Below are positions 3,881 to 51,030 of a stretch of DNA of 64,000 nt, in pieces. Positions within the stretch are counted from its first letter, which is position 1; each line of letters begins with the position of its first letter. Origin of the DNA: Hoylesella marshii DSM 16973 = JCM 13450 (GTDB lineage Bacteria > Bacteroidota > Bacteroidia > Bacteroidales > Bacteroidaceae). Below the pieces are notes generated by a model, which saw nothing but the letters and a program-made list of their open reading frames with translations, had not been told where the DNA came from and searched no databases. A program made the translations under genes and the position numbers. The stretch covers positions 2,068,023-2,132,022 of the forward strand of contig NZ_GL397214.1 in assembly GCF_000146675.1 (NCBI RefSeq). Direction: 5' to 3'.

Positions 3881-4190
3881 AGGCGCAGGGTAAGCGCTGA
3901 AGGCGCGTAAGATGTCAGCCCAGCGCATAGCATCGAGTAGATGACACTTCCCCAAGTAAGCTCTGAAAGAGCGCTATATATCAGCCCAGCGCATAGCGCT
4001 GGGTATAGAGCATTCCCCGAAATGGAGCGCTGTAAGTGCGACACGTCCCGTTCATCTATATATATGGAGATGAAATAAAAAGGTCTTTCGCACTTACAGC
4101 GCTCATCTTTTTTGCCCCTGTTTACCCAAGGCGTTGCCTTGGGCTGACATCTTACGCGCCTCCAGCGCTTTCCTTTCAATCATTAAAGGC
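3881..4190 (+). repeat. composite hairpin repeat family B, copy B1
   Basis: The copy contains three palindromic modules: CCCAGCGC/GCGCTGGG hairpins, a long hairpin whose arms are GAGCGCTGTAAGTGCGAC and its near complement (4025-4104, with an inner TTCATCT/AGATGAA stem), and CCCAAGGC-GTT-GCCTTGGG (about 4126-4144). It abuts A1. Open frames over it arise only because the repeat lacks stops; they are not supported as genes. Confidence 0.75.
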
Positions 4191-4289: not shown

Positions 4290-4700
4290 AATGCTTTGAG
4301 GTGCAATGCAAGTGCTGGCAGAGCATGATAGCGCAGTGCATCAAGTGCGAAATATAATGGTACGAAATGTAATGTAAGCGCTCCAAACGCGTAAGATATC
4401 AGCCCAGCGTATAGCGCTGGGTATAGAACATTCCTCGAAAAGGAGCGCTGTAAGTGCGACACATCTTTATCAAACATCTATTTGAAAATGAAATAAAAAG
4501 GTCTGTCGCACTTACAGCGCTCACCTTTTTTACCCCCGTTTACCCAAGGCGTTGCCTTGGGCTGACATCTTACGCGCCTCCAGCGCTTGCTTTTCAATCA
4601 TTAATGGTATGTAGTTGCGATTTCCAACAATGTACATTCTACTCGTTCATAAGGCGGAAAGAGGCTTTGAAAGAGACACATTGTAGTGTGTATTGATACC
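4290..4700 (+). repeat. composite hairpin repeat family B, copy B2
   Basis: This is a second copy in the same orientation, with the long hairpin at 4443-4522 and the CCCAAGGC/GCCTTGGG hairpin near 4547-4565. The right end (about 4600-4700, ending in TTGATACCA) reappears inverted at 17870-17975, where it meets a broken ATPase gene. It abuts A2. Confidence 0.75.
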
Positions 4701-8534: not shown

Positions 8535-9266
8535 CTACAGACGGCAGAACAGTTGTTCGGCCTCTTTTAAAGTGTCTATCTTTCCAACATCAATGAGTTG
8601 CAGGCCTTCTTGCAGGCAGCCGCGGATATTCGTTTGATGGCAGACAGACAAATAGAAGTCCATAATTCCGAACTTTTCCGGGAAATTGTCCATCAACTTC
8701 AGTAGTCTTGGTGAGAAGAGATGGATGCCGGAAAAGGCGTATCTGCGGCATTTGTCGATGTTTAACCGAGGGTAGGGAGAACGTATTTCGCCCGTTCCGA
8801 GGTGAGTCCATCCCACGAGATTCATATCGTTATCGAAGAGCAGATACCGCTTTGTGTCGCGGTTGCTCACAAGGAGTGTGGCATCGTTGGTGAGATTTTG
8901 GCTGTAGAAGGCCTGCAAATCGGCGTTGCTAAGAATATCTACATTGTGCAGGAGCACGGGCGATTGGGGGTCGAAAGCATGGCCGGCTTTCTTGATTCCG
9001 CCTCCGGTATCGAGCAGACAGCTACTCTCGTCGGAAATAATCACTTCCATTCCGAAGTTATCTTTGGCGCGAATAAAACGGATAACACGCTCAGAGAAGT
9101 GGTGCACATTTATCACCATTCGCTGCACGCCGGCATCTTTCAACTTGAGGACGACCCGTTCGAGCAGGGGCATGCCTCCCACTTCTATCAGCGCCTTGGG
9201 CACTTTCTCGGTCAAAGGCTTCAGTCTTGTGCCCAATCCCGCTGCAAAAATCATGGCTTGCATCAT
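8535..9266 (-). CDS. murU: MurU-like sugar-phosphate nucleotidyltransferase
   Basis: This 243-residue protein has the nucleotidyltransferase signature AAGLGTRLKPLTEKVPKA at its start, then LLHNVDILS as metal-binding segment. Length and sequence fit MurU, which turns MurNAc-1-phosphate into UDP-MurNAc in cell-wall recycling, better than longer GDP-mannose or glucose-1-phosphate enzymes. The context supports this: the gene directly upstream encodes an AmgK-type kinase, the enzyme that would make MurNAc-1-phosphate. The start may be either of two adjacent ATGs (9266 or 9263). A separate promoter at 9296-9326 means it need not depend on the kinase messenger. The exact sugar is inferred from the pairing. 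Confidence 0.78.
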   Translation of the reverse strand: MMQAMIFAAGLGTRLKPLTEKVPKALIEVGGMPLLERVVLKLKDAGVQRMVINVHHFSERVIRFIRAKDNFGMEVIISDESSCLLDTGGGIKKAGHAFDPQSPVLLHNVDILSNADLQAFYSQNLTNDATLLVSNRDTKRYLLFDNDMNLVGWTHLGTGEIRSPYPRLNIDKCRRYAFSGIHLFSPRLLKLMDNFPEKFGIMDFYLSVCHQTNIRGCLQEGLQLIDVGKIDTLKEAEQLFCRL

Positions 9267-9295
9267 CTTGATGAGGGCTGTCTATATCGTGTATG

Positions 9296-9326
9296 CAAAG
9301 ATACGAATTTATTTTCTGTGCGACAA
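9296..9326 (-). promoter_or_regulatory. internal promoter in front of murU
   Basis: On the minus strand: TTG (9326-9324), 20 bases, TATCTTTG (9303-9296). It lies in the 92-base gap between the kinase-RapZ gene and murU, so murU and guaA can be transcribed independently of the kinase. Confidence 0.7.
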
Positions 9327-9358
9327 GAAAACGGTTTTTATGTTTCCGTCGCTGAATT

Positions 9359-10927
9359 TCATTCCTGTCGTAAGGCTCCTTCTGCGGTGCGGCTCCTCGC
9401 TTCCAGCACCGTGGAGATATGCTGTTCGCGGTGTATGATGTGTACTTCCACACCGTATTTTGCATGTAAATGTTCTGCCAGATGTTGTGCCGAATATACG
9501 CTCCGGTGCTGTCCGCCGGTGCAACCGAAAGCAAACATCAGGTCAGTAAAGCCTCTTTGCAGGTAGCGTTCCACATGATGGTCAGCCAAGGCGTACACGT
9601 TTTCGAGGAAAGAAAGTATCTCTCCGTCGTCTTCGAGGAAACGTATCACAGGTTCATCAAGCCCCGTGAGCGTCTTGTAAGGCTCATACCGTCCGGGGTT
9701 ATGTGTGGAACGACAGTCAAACACATAACCCCCGCCATTGCCGGAGCTGTCTTCCGGCAATCCTTTTCGATAGGAAAAGCTGAATACTCGCACAACAAGC
9801 GCCCCTTTACCGTCGTATTTTGAGAAAGTGGCAGGCCCGTCTTTGGGGTGTCCGTGGTAAATGTTGAAGTCGGCAACTCTGAACCCGTCGGCTCTGTTCG
9901 GCGTGGTTTCTTTCGCCGGTGAGAACTGTTCCAGCTCAGTAAGTCTGTGCAACATGTCCATCATATACGGGTAAGGAAAGACATCGAGCACAAGGAGTTC
10001 GCGCAGATTGGCGATGGCTGGTGGTATGCTGTCTAAGAAATGCTGTTTATGTTCGTAGTATCCCCGGAAGCCATAAGCACCCAACACTTGTAGCGTACGA
10101 AAGAGAACAAACTGTGAAAGCCGTTCTGCGAAGTGCCGTATCGAAGGTACTTCGGTATAATTCTTAAGCGATTGGTAGTATTCATAGACCAAATCACGGC
10201 GCAGTTTGTGAGAGTAAAGCGCCGAAGCCTGCCATAAGAATGAGGCCAAATCATAGTAGAAAGGCCCTTTCCTGCCGCCTTGGAAGTCTATGAAGTAGGG
10301 CTTTCCTGCCTCGTCGAGCATCACATTACGAGCTTGAAAATCACGATAAAGGAAACAATCTGCCGTCTCGGATGTCAAATCTTTTGCGAAAAGATGGAAA
10401 TTGGCCTCAAGTTTCAGCTCATGGAAGTCCAGCCCCGTAGGTTTGAGAAAGCAGTATTTGAAGTAATTCAGGTCGAAGAGCACGCTGTTTCTGTCGAACT
10501 CCGGCTGTGGATAACAGTTGCTCCAGTCCAATCCGCGGGCACCTCTTATCTGTATGTTGGGAAGCTCGCGTATGGTTCTCTTTAAGAGTTCTTTCTCCCG
10601 TTGATTGTATCTGCCGCCTGCATCGCGACCTCCTTTGAGGGCATCGTATAGCGATGTAGAGCCCAAATCTTCTTGTAGGTATCTCAATTCCTCAGCATCT
10701 GCGGCCAGAATGTGAGGCACGGGCAGCTGTTTTTTCTCGAAATGCCGCGCCAAATATAAGAAAGCATGGTCTTCGTCGCAACTTGTGCCGATGACACCGA
10801 TAACAGACCGGCCGTTGCTGTCTGTGAGTCTGTAGTATTCGCGATTGCTTCCTGCCACGGGCAACTTCTGCACCTGCGCGGCATCCTCTCCTTTCCACCG
10901 ACTGTATAGTTGTAACAGTTTTTCCAT
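9359..10927 (-). CDS. AmgK-type sugar kinase fused to RapZ C-terminal domain
   Basis: Starting at the ATG at 10927 the protein has 522 residues in two parts. Residues 1-330 form an aminoglycoside-phosphotransferase-fold kinase: YRDFQARN with Asp196 and Asn201, then IDFQGG with the metal-binding Asp214, as in AmgK, which phosphorylates MurNAc at C1. Residues about 376-503 match the C-terminal domain of RapZ (GGGYVFDCRS, NPGRYEPYKTLTGLDEPV, FAFGCTGGQHRSVY, HIIHREQ), the part that senses glucosamine-6-phosphate and binds RNA in E. coli. The RapZ P-loop domain is absent and is replaced by the kinase. The gene stops 92 bases before murU. A joint role in amino-sugar recycling and sensing is inferred. 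Confidence 0.85.
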   Translation of the reverse strand: MEKLLQLYSRWKGEDAAQVQKLPVAGSNREYYRLTDSNGRSVIGVIGTSCDEDHAFLYLARHFEKKQLPVPHILAADAEELRYLQEDLGSTSLYDALKGGRDAGGRYNQREKELLKRTIRELPNIQIRGARGLDWSNCYPQPEFDRNSVLFDLNYFKYCFLKPTGLDFHELKLEANFHLFAKDLTSETADCFLYRDFQARNVMLDEAGKPYFIDFQGGRKGPFYYDLASFLWQASALYSHKLRRDLVYEYYQSLKNYTEVPSIRHFAERLSQFVLFRTLQVLGAYGFRGYYEHKQHFLDSIPPAIANLRELLVLDVFPYPYMMDMLHRLTELEQFSPAKETTPNRADGFRVADFNIYHGHPKDGPATFSKYDGKGALVVRVFSFSYRKGLPEDSSGNGGGYVFDCRSTHNPGRYEPYKTLTGLDEPVIRFLEDDGEILSFLENVYALADHHVERYLQRGFTDLMFAFGCTGGQHRSVYSAQHLAEHLHAKYGVEVHIIHREQHISTVLEARSRTAEGALRQE

Positions 10928-10934
10928 ATGGCTG

Positions 10935-11132
10935 TCAGTTGATGGATTTATTCTCGTCGTCTTGGTTTTTCCCCCGTCGCCTTTCACCGGCGTAGTAACC
11001 TATTATATAGTCGCCGATGAGCAGTAACAGCAGAATGCCTAACGACATCATCCACGATTCGGTGATATAGATGAGGCCACCGGTGATGACTGCAAACATC
11101 AGGATATGAAAGATTCCGAACTTATTTATCAT
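10935..11132 (-). CDS. small two-helix membrane protein
   Basis: The 65-residue product has two hydrophobic stretches (about residues 7-23 and 27-47) followed by a charged, basic and acidic tail (GERRRGKNQDDENKSIN). It is a small inner-membrane protein with its tail probably in the cytoplasm. Its stop lies seven bases before the start of the kinase-RapZ gene, so the two are likely cotranscribed. A TACATTTG element on the minus strand at 11137-11144 sits almost at the start codon, so the transcript could be nearly leaderless, but no -33 box is seen. I do not recognise a family. Confidence 0.65.
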   Translation of the reverse strand: MINKFGIFHILMFAVITGGLIYITESWMMSLGILLLLLIGDYIIGYYAGERRRGKNQDDENKSIN

Positions 11133-11226
11133 GGTGCAAATGTACTAAAAAAATAGCGAGGCGTTGTGGATTCCTTGCATTTCTTTGTAAGCTCGCTTAG
11201 GTAAAAACGTGTTTTTTGTGAAAAAA

Positions 11227-17875: not shown

Positions 17876-18360
17876 TCAATATACACTACGATGTGCCTCT
17901 TTCAAAGCCTCTTTCCGCCTTATGAACGAGTAGAATGTATATTGTTGGAAATCGCAACTACATACCATTAATGATTGAAAGGCAAGCGCTGGAGGCGCGT
18001 AAGATGTCAGCCCAAGGCAACGCCTTGGGCTGAGAAAATGCTAAGCGCTGAAACGAAGTTCGCCGTGCGAAGCAAAGGCAAAGTGCGAAAGACCTTTTTA
18101 TTTCATCTCCATATATATAGATGAACGGGATGTGTCGCACTTACAGCGCTCCATTTAGGGGAACATCATATACCCAGCGCTATGCGCTGGGCTGACATCT
18201 TACGCTCTTGCAGAGCTTACTTGGGGAAATGTTATCTACTCGGTGCTGCGCGCTGGGCTAATATGTTATGCGCTTGCAGCGCTTACTTGGGGAAATGTTA
18301 TCTACTCGGTGCTGCGCGCTGGGCTAATATGTTACGCGCTTGCAGCGCTTATCCTGCGCC
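17870..18360 (-). repeat. composite hairpin repeat family B, copy B3 (inverted)
   Basis: Bases 17870-18030 are nearly the reverse complement of 4545-4700. The rest carries the GTCGCACTTACAGCGCTC arm, a CCCAGCGC/GCGCTGGG hairpin, and two further degenerate copies of a 60-base block (ACTTGGGGAAATGTTATCTAC) at about 18219-18340. Together with A3 it fills the gene-free stretch 17876-18664. Confidence 0.75.
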
Positions 18361-41727: not shown

Positions 41728-41769
41728 TTGCACGATGCGAAGATGATGCCTATCTTTGCATCGTGTTTT
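41728..41769 (+). terminator. dsbD terminator containing a promoter-like sequence
   Basis: Arms CACGATGCGAAGAT (41731-41744) and ATCTTTGCATCGTG (41752-41765) pair with one mismatch and are followed by T5, a terminator 70 bases after dsbD. The same bases also hold TTG (41728-41730), 20 bases, TATCTTTG (41751-41758), which matches the promoter consensus. The terminator reading is the simpler one. Confidence 0.65.
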
Positions 41770-41801
41770 TCATAGTATTAGATTTAAGGTTAACATTGAT
41801 T

Positions 41802-41826
41802 GGAGTACGGCGGTACTCCTTTTTTT
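41802..41826 (+). terminator. second intrinsic terminator, possible end of a short RNA
   Basis: GGAGTAC (41802-41808) pairs with GTACTCC (41813-41819), followed by T7. It is either a backup terminator for dsbD or the end of a roughly 60-base RNA started from the promoter-like sequence at 41728-41758. The remaining bases to dusB (41827-41958) show nothing further. Confidence 0.75.
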
Positions 41827-41958
41827 ATGTCCGTAAGTTTTTCTTTAGTACTGATAGAAGAAGTCCTTTATGCTTAGAATAAAAAAGTGACAGACAGCTT
41901 TGTGCCCGTTGGAATTCCCTGAATCAACAGCAGAATCTTCCGGAGTTGTCTCTCCTTG

Positions 41959-50689: not shown

Positions 50690-51030
50690 ATCAATACCCT
50701 ATTATTATAGTATGAGGTGCAATGCAAGCCTCCCAAAAGTAGCATTGCAGGGCACATAGATGCCCTAAAATCATCGTATGATTGATGGGGCAAGCTCTGC
50801 AAGAGCGCAAGACATCAGCCCAGCGCGCAGCGCTGGGTATAGGGCAATTCCCTAAATGGAGCGCTGTAGGTGCGACAGAATCTCCCAACCGATACGATTT
50901 GCACCGCGAAAGGTTGCCGACCCATCTACATACAAACGCCATCTGTACGTAGGACAAACGGCATCTGTGCCACGTACAAACGCCATCTGTATGGCGTCTC
51001 ATGGCCGATTGGGGATAAAGAGAATGGCGA
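50690..51030 (+). repeat. family B copy B5 and family H copy 2
   Basis: The B part has CCCAGCGC/GCGCTGGG and GGAGCGCTGTAGGTGCGACA; the H part has three ACAAACGCCATCTGT-like words (near 50934, 50953 and 50976). It fills most of the gene-free stretch between the secreted protein gene and udk. Except for the terminator, nothing else is seen there. Confidence 0.7.

Follow-up and report, generated by a model that had tools for sequence, protein, structure and literature searches.

An AmgK-like kinase fused to the RapZ C-terminal domain beside a MurU-like gene: a putative sugar-salvage module of Bacteroidota

A Kinase Fused to the RapZ C-Terminal Domain

The stretch analyzed here, 64,000 nucleotides of Hoylesella marshii DSM 16973 = JCM 13450 (contig NZ_GL397214.1, positions 2,068,023 to 2,132,022; hereafter the window), encodes a protein in which an AmgK-like kinase is joined to the C-terminal domain of RapZ (hereafter RapZ_C), and the next gene encodes a MurU-like nucleotidyltransferase. 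This kinase-RapZ_C fusion is real and widespread, and it is assembled from known parts. We tentatively propose, with a probability of about 0.45, that the protein is an anomeric kinase of the N-acetylmuramic acid (MurNAc) type that would feed MurU and be controlled, at the protein level, through binding of a phospho-sugar to its remodelled RapZ_C. The parts of the two genes are:

9359..10927, minus strand: fusion gene of 522 amino acids, AmgK-like kinase, linker and RapZ_C (open reading frame, Pfam, AlphaFold model)
9923..10927, minus strand: kinase domain with the aminoglycoside phosphotransferase (APH) fold, about residues 1-335 (Pfam APH; 3csv at Z 28.3)
10325..10345, minus strand: kinase catalytic motif RDFQARN, residues 195-201 (alignments A1 and A4)
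10280..10291, minus strand: kinase motif IDFQ, residues 213-216 (alignments A1 and A4)
9824..9907, minus strand: low-confidence linker, residues 341-368 (predicted local distance difference test, pLDDT, below 50)
9413..9808, minus strand: RapZ C-terminal domain, about residues 374-505 (PF22740; 5o5q_B at Z 19.4)
9728..9742, minus strand: GNGGG, residues 396-400, part of an insertion missing from 11 canonical RapZs (alignment)
9500..9523, minus strand: phosphate loop CTGGQHRS, residues 469-476, E. coli C247-S254 (CTGGxHRS kept in 128/128 domains)
8535..9263, minus strand: MurU-like nucleotidyltransferase gene, 242 amino acids, next gene on the same strand as the fusion (NCBIfam, Pfam)

Pfam assigned residues 26-245 of the fusion to APH (47.9 bits against a cut-off of 23.2) and residues 378-502 to PF22740, the RapZ C-terminal domain (110 bits against 27). 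The AlphaFold model consists of two confident domains (mean pLDDT 88.7), whose placement relative to each other is unreliable because the predicted template modelling score is only 0.66. In structure comparisons of this model the RapZ part matched E. coli RapZ (5o5q_B) with 1.3 Å over 123 residues and 34% identity, and the kinase part matched 3csv with 2.7 Å over 305 residues and also resembled many other APH-fold enzymes. One of these many matches at similar Z was the N-acetylhexosamine 1-kinase 4ocj, an anomeric kinase of an N-acetylated sugar (Z 19.5, 4.2 Å over 291 residues, 13% identity to the kinase part). The preliminary description of this DNA, made from the sequence alone, had proposed an APH-fold kinase joined to RapZ_C in place of the RapZ P-loop domain. 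Both parts of that proposal are borne out, the first by Pfam, by the model and by the genomes discussed below. The P-loop domain PF03668 was absent from the fusion protein and from its own genome, and it exceeded the cut-off in none of 198 genomes of the phylum, with one match below the cut-off.

The kinase part has kept its catalytic motifs. R195, D196 and N201 were invariant in alignments A1 (17 rows) and A4 (40 rows), as were D214 and Q216 of the IDFQ motif, which we take to be the kinase metal-site motif; the RDFxxRN-type motif occurred in 116 of 117 fusions and the IDxQ-type motif in all 117. AmgK, the MurNAc/GlcNAc (N-acetylglucosamine) anomeric kinase of the MurU pathway, was the best NCBIfam model for this part (NF045759), with 61.4 bits against an equivalog score of 550. 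The likeness to AmgK thus comprises the APH fold, the RDF..RN and ID.Q motifs and the adjoining murU gene; unlike AmgK, the protein bears a RapZ_C domain, which lies outside the 324 positions of the AmgK model. For the whole fusion RapZ was the top NCBIfam model at 92.9 bits, short of the curated equivalog score of 244. The neighbouring protein matched PF00483 (52.1 bits against a cut-off of 21.2), and both its best NCBIfam model (NF045761, 117.7 bits against an equivalog score of 250) and its best match in the Protein Data Bank (8hhd) were MurU, the MurNAc-1-phosphate uridylyltransferase. It also matched models and structures of heptose and mannose nucleotidyltransferases, more weakly. A description of the fusion was not found in the open-licence literature of PubMed Central (PMC), where the RapZ papers touching Bacteroidetes were, by title, on other topics and work on the RapZ C-terminal domain concerned E. 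coli.

Distribution and Gene Order in Bacteroidota

Four queries were run against a single evenly drawn sample of 395 Bacteroidota genomes: RapZ_C, a kinase model (A2), a MurU model (A3) and AnmK. RapZ_C was present in 49 genomes. At E <= 1e-10 the kinase model matched 134 genomes, whose scores fell into two sets: 50 genomes reached >=254 bits, the other 84 stayed at <=140 bits, and the cut was placed in the gap between them after it had been seen. The 84 weaker genomes belong to one family (f18), and RapZ_C occurred in none of them. For the MurU model there were 137 matching genomes (E <= 1e-30); 51 of these scored >=183 bits, before a gap to 142. All 49 RapZ_C genomes lay within the 50 kinase genomes, to which G009 is added, and these within the 51 MurU genomes, to which G231 is added. 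For RapZ_C and kinase this corresponds to a Fisher p of about 4e-62 (n = 395, shared ancestry ignored). The link to a MurU-like enzyme, which the preliminary description had drawn from the two neighbouring genes, therefore extends far beyond the window. Within the family of genome G347, 50 of 59 genomes matched the window protein.

In 37 of the 49 RapZ_C genomes kinase and RapZ_C were fused, in eight they were neighbouring genes and in four RapZ_C stood apart from the kinase. MurU was adjacent in 39 of the 49; in the other ten it was missing from the fetched flank and a match lay elsewhere in the genome. A further set of named loci consisted of the best-scoring 80 of 592 related stretches, and all 80 were fused. 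Since the fused form recurs in both sets, chance or an assembly artefact can be dismissed. The nearest named relatives in this set were Prevotella and Hoylesella, with at most 77% identity. MurU was adjacent in 45 of the named loci, further off in three, on the opposite strand in one and in frame with the fusion in three (L088, L103, L105). In the latter, kinase, RapZ_C and MurU form a single frame of 760-780 residues by Pfam, a departure from MurU as otherwise known; as L103 and L105 are 65% identical, a single assembly error is an improbable source of this triple form.

A midpoint-rooted tree of the kinase (59 rows) required four changes of the fused label, at least three of which are forced by well-supported branches. 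A three-gene operon (L020) was the sister of a fused locus (L019) with support 99/97, and a split-gene group (f5; 100/100, on a long branch) was nested in an otherwise fused group of 30 rows (95/95). The placement of one kinase without RapZ_C (L171) was not firm. The simplest reading of this tree would be fission with RapZ_C retained.

Two neighbourhoods of the split forms are recorded here as side observations. In the f5 group (L037-L043, e.g., L043 3410-4162) MurU is followed by a LOG-type gene named 'possible lysine decarboxylase'; clustering placed such a gene after MurU in six of the seven fetched f5 operon loci, with Pfam run on L043. By Pfam a LOG-type gene also follows MurU in L036 (3502-4212). 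The stand-alone, unlinked RapZ_C genes of L033 (3627-4907) and L035 (3673-4950) obtained no name from NCBIfam, and each is followed by a transporter gene, assigned to MFS_1 by Pfam in L033 and similar in appearance in L035.

Pocket, Dimer and RNA-Binding Residues of RapZ_C

Residues were counted in 129 RapZ_C domains (117 fused, 12 separate), an uneven sample as 80 of them come from the named loci, and are given in E. coli numbering. The domain resembles that of RapZ, the E. coli RNase adapter, in its PF22740 fold, its phosphate loop and its dimer residues. F181, D182, R184, N188, P189 and G200 were retained in 129/129 domains. In the E. coli C-terminal domain F181A and D182A are reported to abolish dimers (PMC5737377); the roles assigned here to the dimer residues and the phosphate loop follow PMC5737377 and PMC9841335. 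C247, T248, G249, G250, H252, R253, S254 and V255 of the phosphate loop were retained in 128/128 (one domain was cut short), and in the AlphaFold model this loop lies between a strand (462-469) and a helix (475-491).

The pocket itself has been remodelled. In E. coli RapZ it is described as formed by H190, T248, G249, H252 and R253 and as holding malonate or sulphate (PMC5737377). The last four of these residues were kept, whereas the position of H190 was Gly in 129/129 domains and the next position (W191) was R or K in 128. A GGG preceding the VFD motif, belonging to the insertion listed above, was likewise present in 129/129. In a canonical panel of E. coli RapZ and ten plasmid-collection records of other phyla (an eleventh record, L211, was dropped as it had no clear domain), position 190 was H in eight and Y in three, and the insertion occurred in none. 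The isolated E. coli domain is reported to bind glucosamine-6-phosphate (GlcN6P) (PMC7073468), and H190A, G249W, R253A, C247A and C247S to each abolish RapZ function (PMC9841335). The preliminary description had pointed to GlcN6P as the ligand, an idea that is weakened by these replacements. With a pocket altered in this way, the domain probably binds not GlcN6P itself but some related phospho-sugar or a product of the pathway.

The residues implicated in RNA binding also differ from E. coli RapZ, in which joint mutation of K270 with K281, R282 and K283 is reported to abolish RNA binding (PMC5737377). K270 was K/R in 0/129 domains, and K281, R282 and K283 were K/R in 13, 26 and 13. A basic residue was found at R211 in six, R238 in none, K251 in six and K194 in 30 of the 129. 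Positive positions were retained at 170 (104), 184 (129), 196 (115) and 268 (113). The tail (up to 19 residues) had a median net charge of 0, ranging from -4 to 7, against +7 in E. coli, but a basic tail was also missing from several canonical RapZs. RNA binding thus looks lost in most Bacteroidota RapZ_C domains, and an RNA-binding partner, which the preliminary description had left as a possibility, seems unlikely; the mostly basic positions 170, 184 and 196 and the canonical RapZs with a non-basic tail temper this verdict.

Context of MurNAc Salvage

AmgK and MurU form an established route from MurNAc to UDP-MurNAc (uridine diphosphate MurNAc) (PMC13046382, PMC7670621), and E. coli expressing AmgK and MurU of T. 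forsythia is reported to be labelled by MurNAc probes (PMC13041923). A Tannerella sp. record (L129) carries the fusion, and the AmgK of the published probe work may or may not be such a protein.

AnmK is the usual maker of MurNAc-6-phosphate, from which MupP removes the 6-phosphate in Pseudomonas. AnmK was found in 271 of the 395 genomes, whereas just 31 of the 49 RapZ_C genomes have it and that of H. marshii does not; the idea that RapZ_C works with AnmK as a MupP-like phosphatase is thus unsupported. NamZ was present in 46 of the 50 kinase genomes, but also in 52 of 55 chosen genomes without the kinase, and is uninformative. MurQ exceeded the cut-off in 18 of the 50 kinase genomes; a tally of 50/50 at E <= 0.001 was set aside, since many of its matches were weak, short and embedded in longer frames.

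A separate observation concerns family f18. In L172, L173 and L179 a related, weaker-scoring kinase and MurU pair without RapZ_C stands with genes for a NamZ-like exo-muramidase and a sodium:solute symporter, these neighbours having been assigned by Pfam in L179 only. The NamZ-like gene was thus in the flank of three of the four fetched f18 loci, and it also occurred in the flank of L130 (where Pfam was run as well) and L187.

Proposed Function and Alternative Explanations

We propose that the fusion and the MurU-like enzyme form a two-gene sugar-salvage module. The N-terminal AmgK-type anomeric kinase would most likely make MurNAc-alpha-1-phosphate, perhaps also GlcNAc-1-phosphate, and the adjacent MurU-like enzyme would turn MurNAc-alpha-1-phosphate into UDP-MurNAc. 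RapZ_C would bind a phosphorylated sugar in the CTGGxHRS pocket and adjust the kinase at the protein level without RNA, and by analogy to E. coli RapZ it probably pairs the enzyme into dimers. The domains, the modelled folds, the gene order, the co-occurrence and the conserved residues are observed here; substrate, ligand, direction of control and dimer are inferred. In favour of this reading, the kinase motifs are kept and AmgK is the best NCBIfam match of the kinase part, though far below its cut-off. The module is further favoured because the RapZ_C genomes are contained in the kinase and MurU genomes, because fusion and adjacency predominate and three triple fusions exist, and because splits arise inside fused groups of the tree with RapZ_C kept. 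A sugar-binding, dimeric RapZ_C is favoured because the phosphate loop and the dimer residues F181 and D182 are retained throughout and because the isolated E. coli domain binds GlcN6P (PMC7073468).

Several observations weigh against this proposal. The NCBIfam cut-offs for AmgK, MurU and RapZ were all missed, and 28 of the 80 named loci had no MurU in the fetched flank. The genome search of H. marshii found AnmK and NamZ absent and no MurQ over the cut-off, and this genome has MurA; these genes thus point to no evident supply of free MurNAc, and the cell may not depend on salvage. There is some circularity in the co-occurrence test, as the cut was chosen after the gap had been seen and models A2 and A3 were built largely from linked loci; yet A2 contains no row from the four genomes in which RapZ_C and kinase lie apart, and these still score >=254 bits. 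Such kinases can do without RapZ_C, since G009 and the 84 f18 genomes lack it, and for the four genomes in which it stands apart a separate enzyme is no worse an explanation than a regulator.

A first alternative, unlikely in our view, makes RapZ_C an enzyme in its own right: a cysteine-dependent hydrolase of phospho-sugars, or something similar, that acts through its C-x5-R-S loop and supplies a step next to that of the kinase, for example by removing the 6-phosphate of MurNAc-6-phosphate. C469 and the whole loop are kept in 128/128 domains though RNA-binding residues are mostly lost, and the modelled position between strand and helix agrees with it. A C-x5-R(-S/T) loop placed in this way is a motif of cysteine phosphatases. 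For E. coli RapZ, in which both Cys247 substitutions abolish function, PMC9841335 calls the GlcN6P site yet uncharacterized and Cys247 essential for a reason still unsettled, suggests that its -SH group may have a catalytic role and notes that a crystal with GlcN6P showed density probably belonging to a transformed product. Separation from the kinase in four genomes would also be easy for an enzyme of its own. On the other hand AnmK is missing from 18 of the 49 RapZ_C genomes, that of H. marshii included, and the structure comparison of RapZ_C alone gave no protein-tyrosine or dual-specificity phosphatase among the 50 matches listed; besides RapZ the top Z was 6.2, with phosphofructokinase and P-loop folds at about 6, which still leaves room for such a relation. 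A bolder version, in which RapZ_C is at root a cysteine-dependent sugar-phosphate enzyme, active in multi-step salvage beside the anomeric kinase and MurU in Bacteroidota and taken up for an RNA role in proteobacteria only later, is speculative and improbable. If RapZ_C were an enzyme, the proteins would form a multi-step salvage enzyme for cell-wall sugars, in some species as a single polypeptide.

It also seems improbable that kinase and nucleotidyltransferase act on another sugar, e.g., heptose or a different amino sugar, and that the MurNAc reading is wrong. The low scores of both parts, the weaker heptose and mannose matches of the MurU-like protein and the lack of AnmK, NamZ and MurQ over the cut-off in H. 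marshii would fit this, but no specific NCBIfam model matches the two parts better than MurU and AmgK, and a NamZ-like gene lies near the related pair in three of the four fetched f18 loci. RapZ_C as a dimerisation or scaffold part that merely holds kinase and MurU together for sugar-phosphate handover, with no sensing, is quite doubtful: the invariant dimer residues and the triple fusions agree with it, but the pocket loop, for which a scaffold would have no need, is kept as strongly, and in four of the 49 genomes the domain stands apart from the kinase. That the fusion has retained RNA regulation of the E. coli RapZ kind appears very improbable. The partly basic RNA-contact positions 170, 184 and 196 speak for it, and the replaced H190, the mostly replaced R211, R238, K251, K270, K281, R282 and K283 and the neutral median tail speak against it, as does the RNA family scan of the window, in which no GlmY or GlmZ match was found.

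Surroundings of the Locus

A small frame of 65 amino acids, probably membrane-bound and without a Pfam family (10935-11132, minus strand), ends seven bases ahead of the start codon of the fusion, and 11 of the 80 named loci have a similar small frame upstream of theirs. Two TAnnTTTG stretches, resembling the Bacteroidota promoter element, are located between fusion and murU (9296-9303, minus strand) and before the small frame (11137-11144, minus strand), so murU may have its own promoter. Elsewhere in the window Rfam identified a member of FopS, a Bacteroidetes small RNA family (41763-41829, plus strand; 75.6 bits, gathering threshold 56), and seven matches to Acido-Lenti-1 RNA on both strands (3959-4003, 4125-4169, 4543-4587, 17985-18029, 18173-18217, 18305-18349 and 50793-50837). 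The latter are mostly barely over the threshold and may be short dispersed repeats.

Implications for RapZ and Peptidoglycan Salvage

In one public record the fusion of Parabacteroides distasonis (L212, 1984-3414; WP_005858754.1) is named 'RNase adapter RapZ', which is misleading for such fusions, and its MurU-like neighbour is named just 'nucleotidyltransferase family protein'. In Bacteroidota the domain lacks the P-loop partner and most of the RNA-binding residues, still has the cysteine and the phosphate loop, and in 49 of 395 genomes goes together with what is probably a cell-wall-sugar kinase. The strongest question is why the cysteine of the C-x5-R-S loop is invariant when the RNA-binding residues are mostly lost. 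The fusion would represent a natural separation of the metabolite role of RapZ from its RNA role, one that is directly testable, and it may mark a point at which gut and oral Bacteroidota control peptidoglycan salvage.

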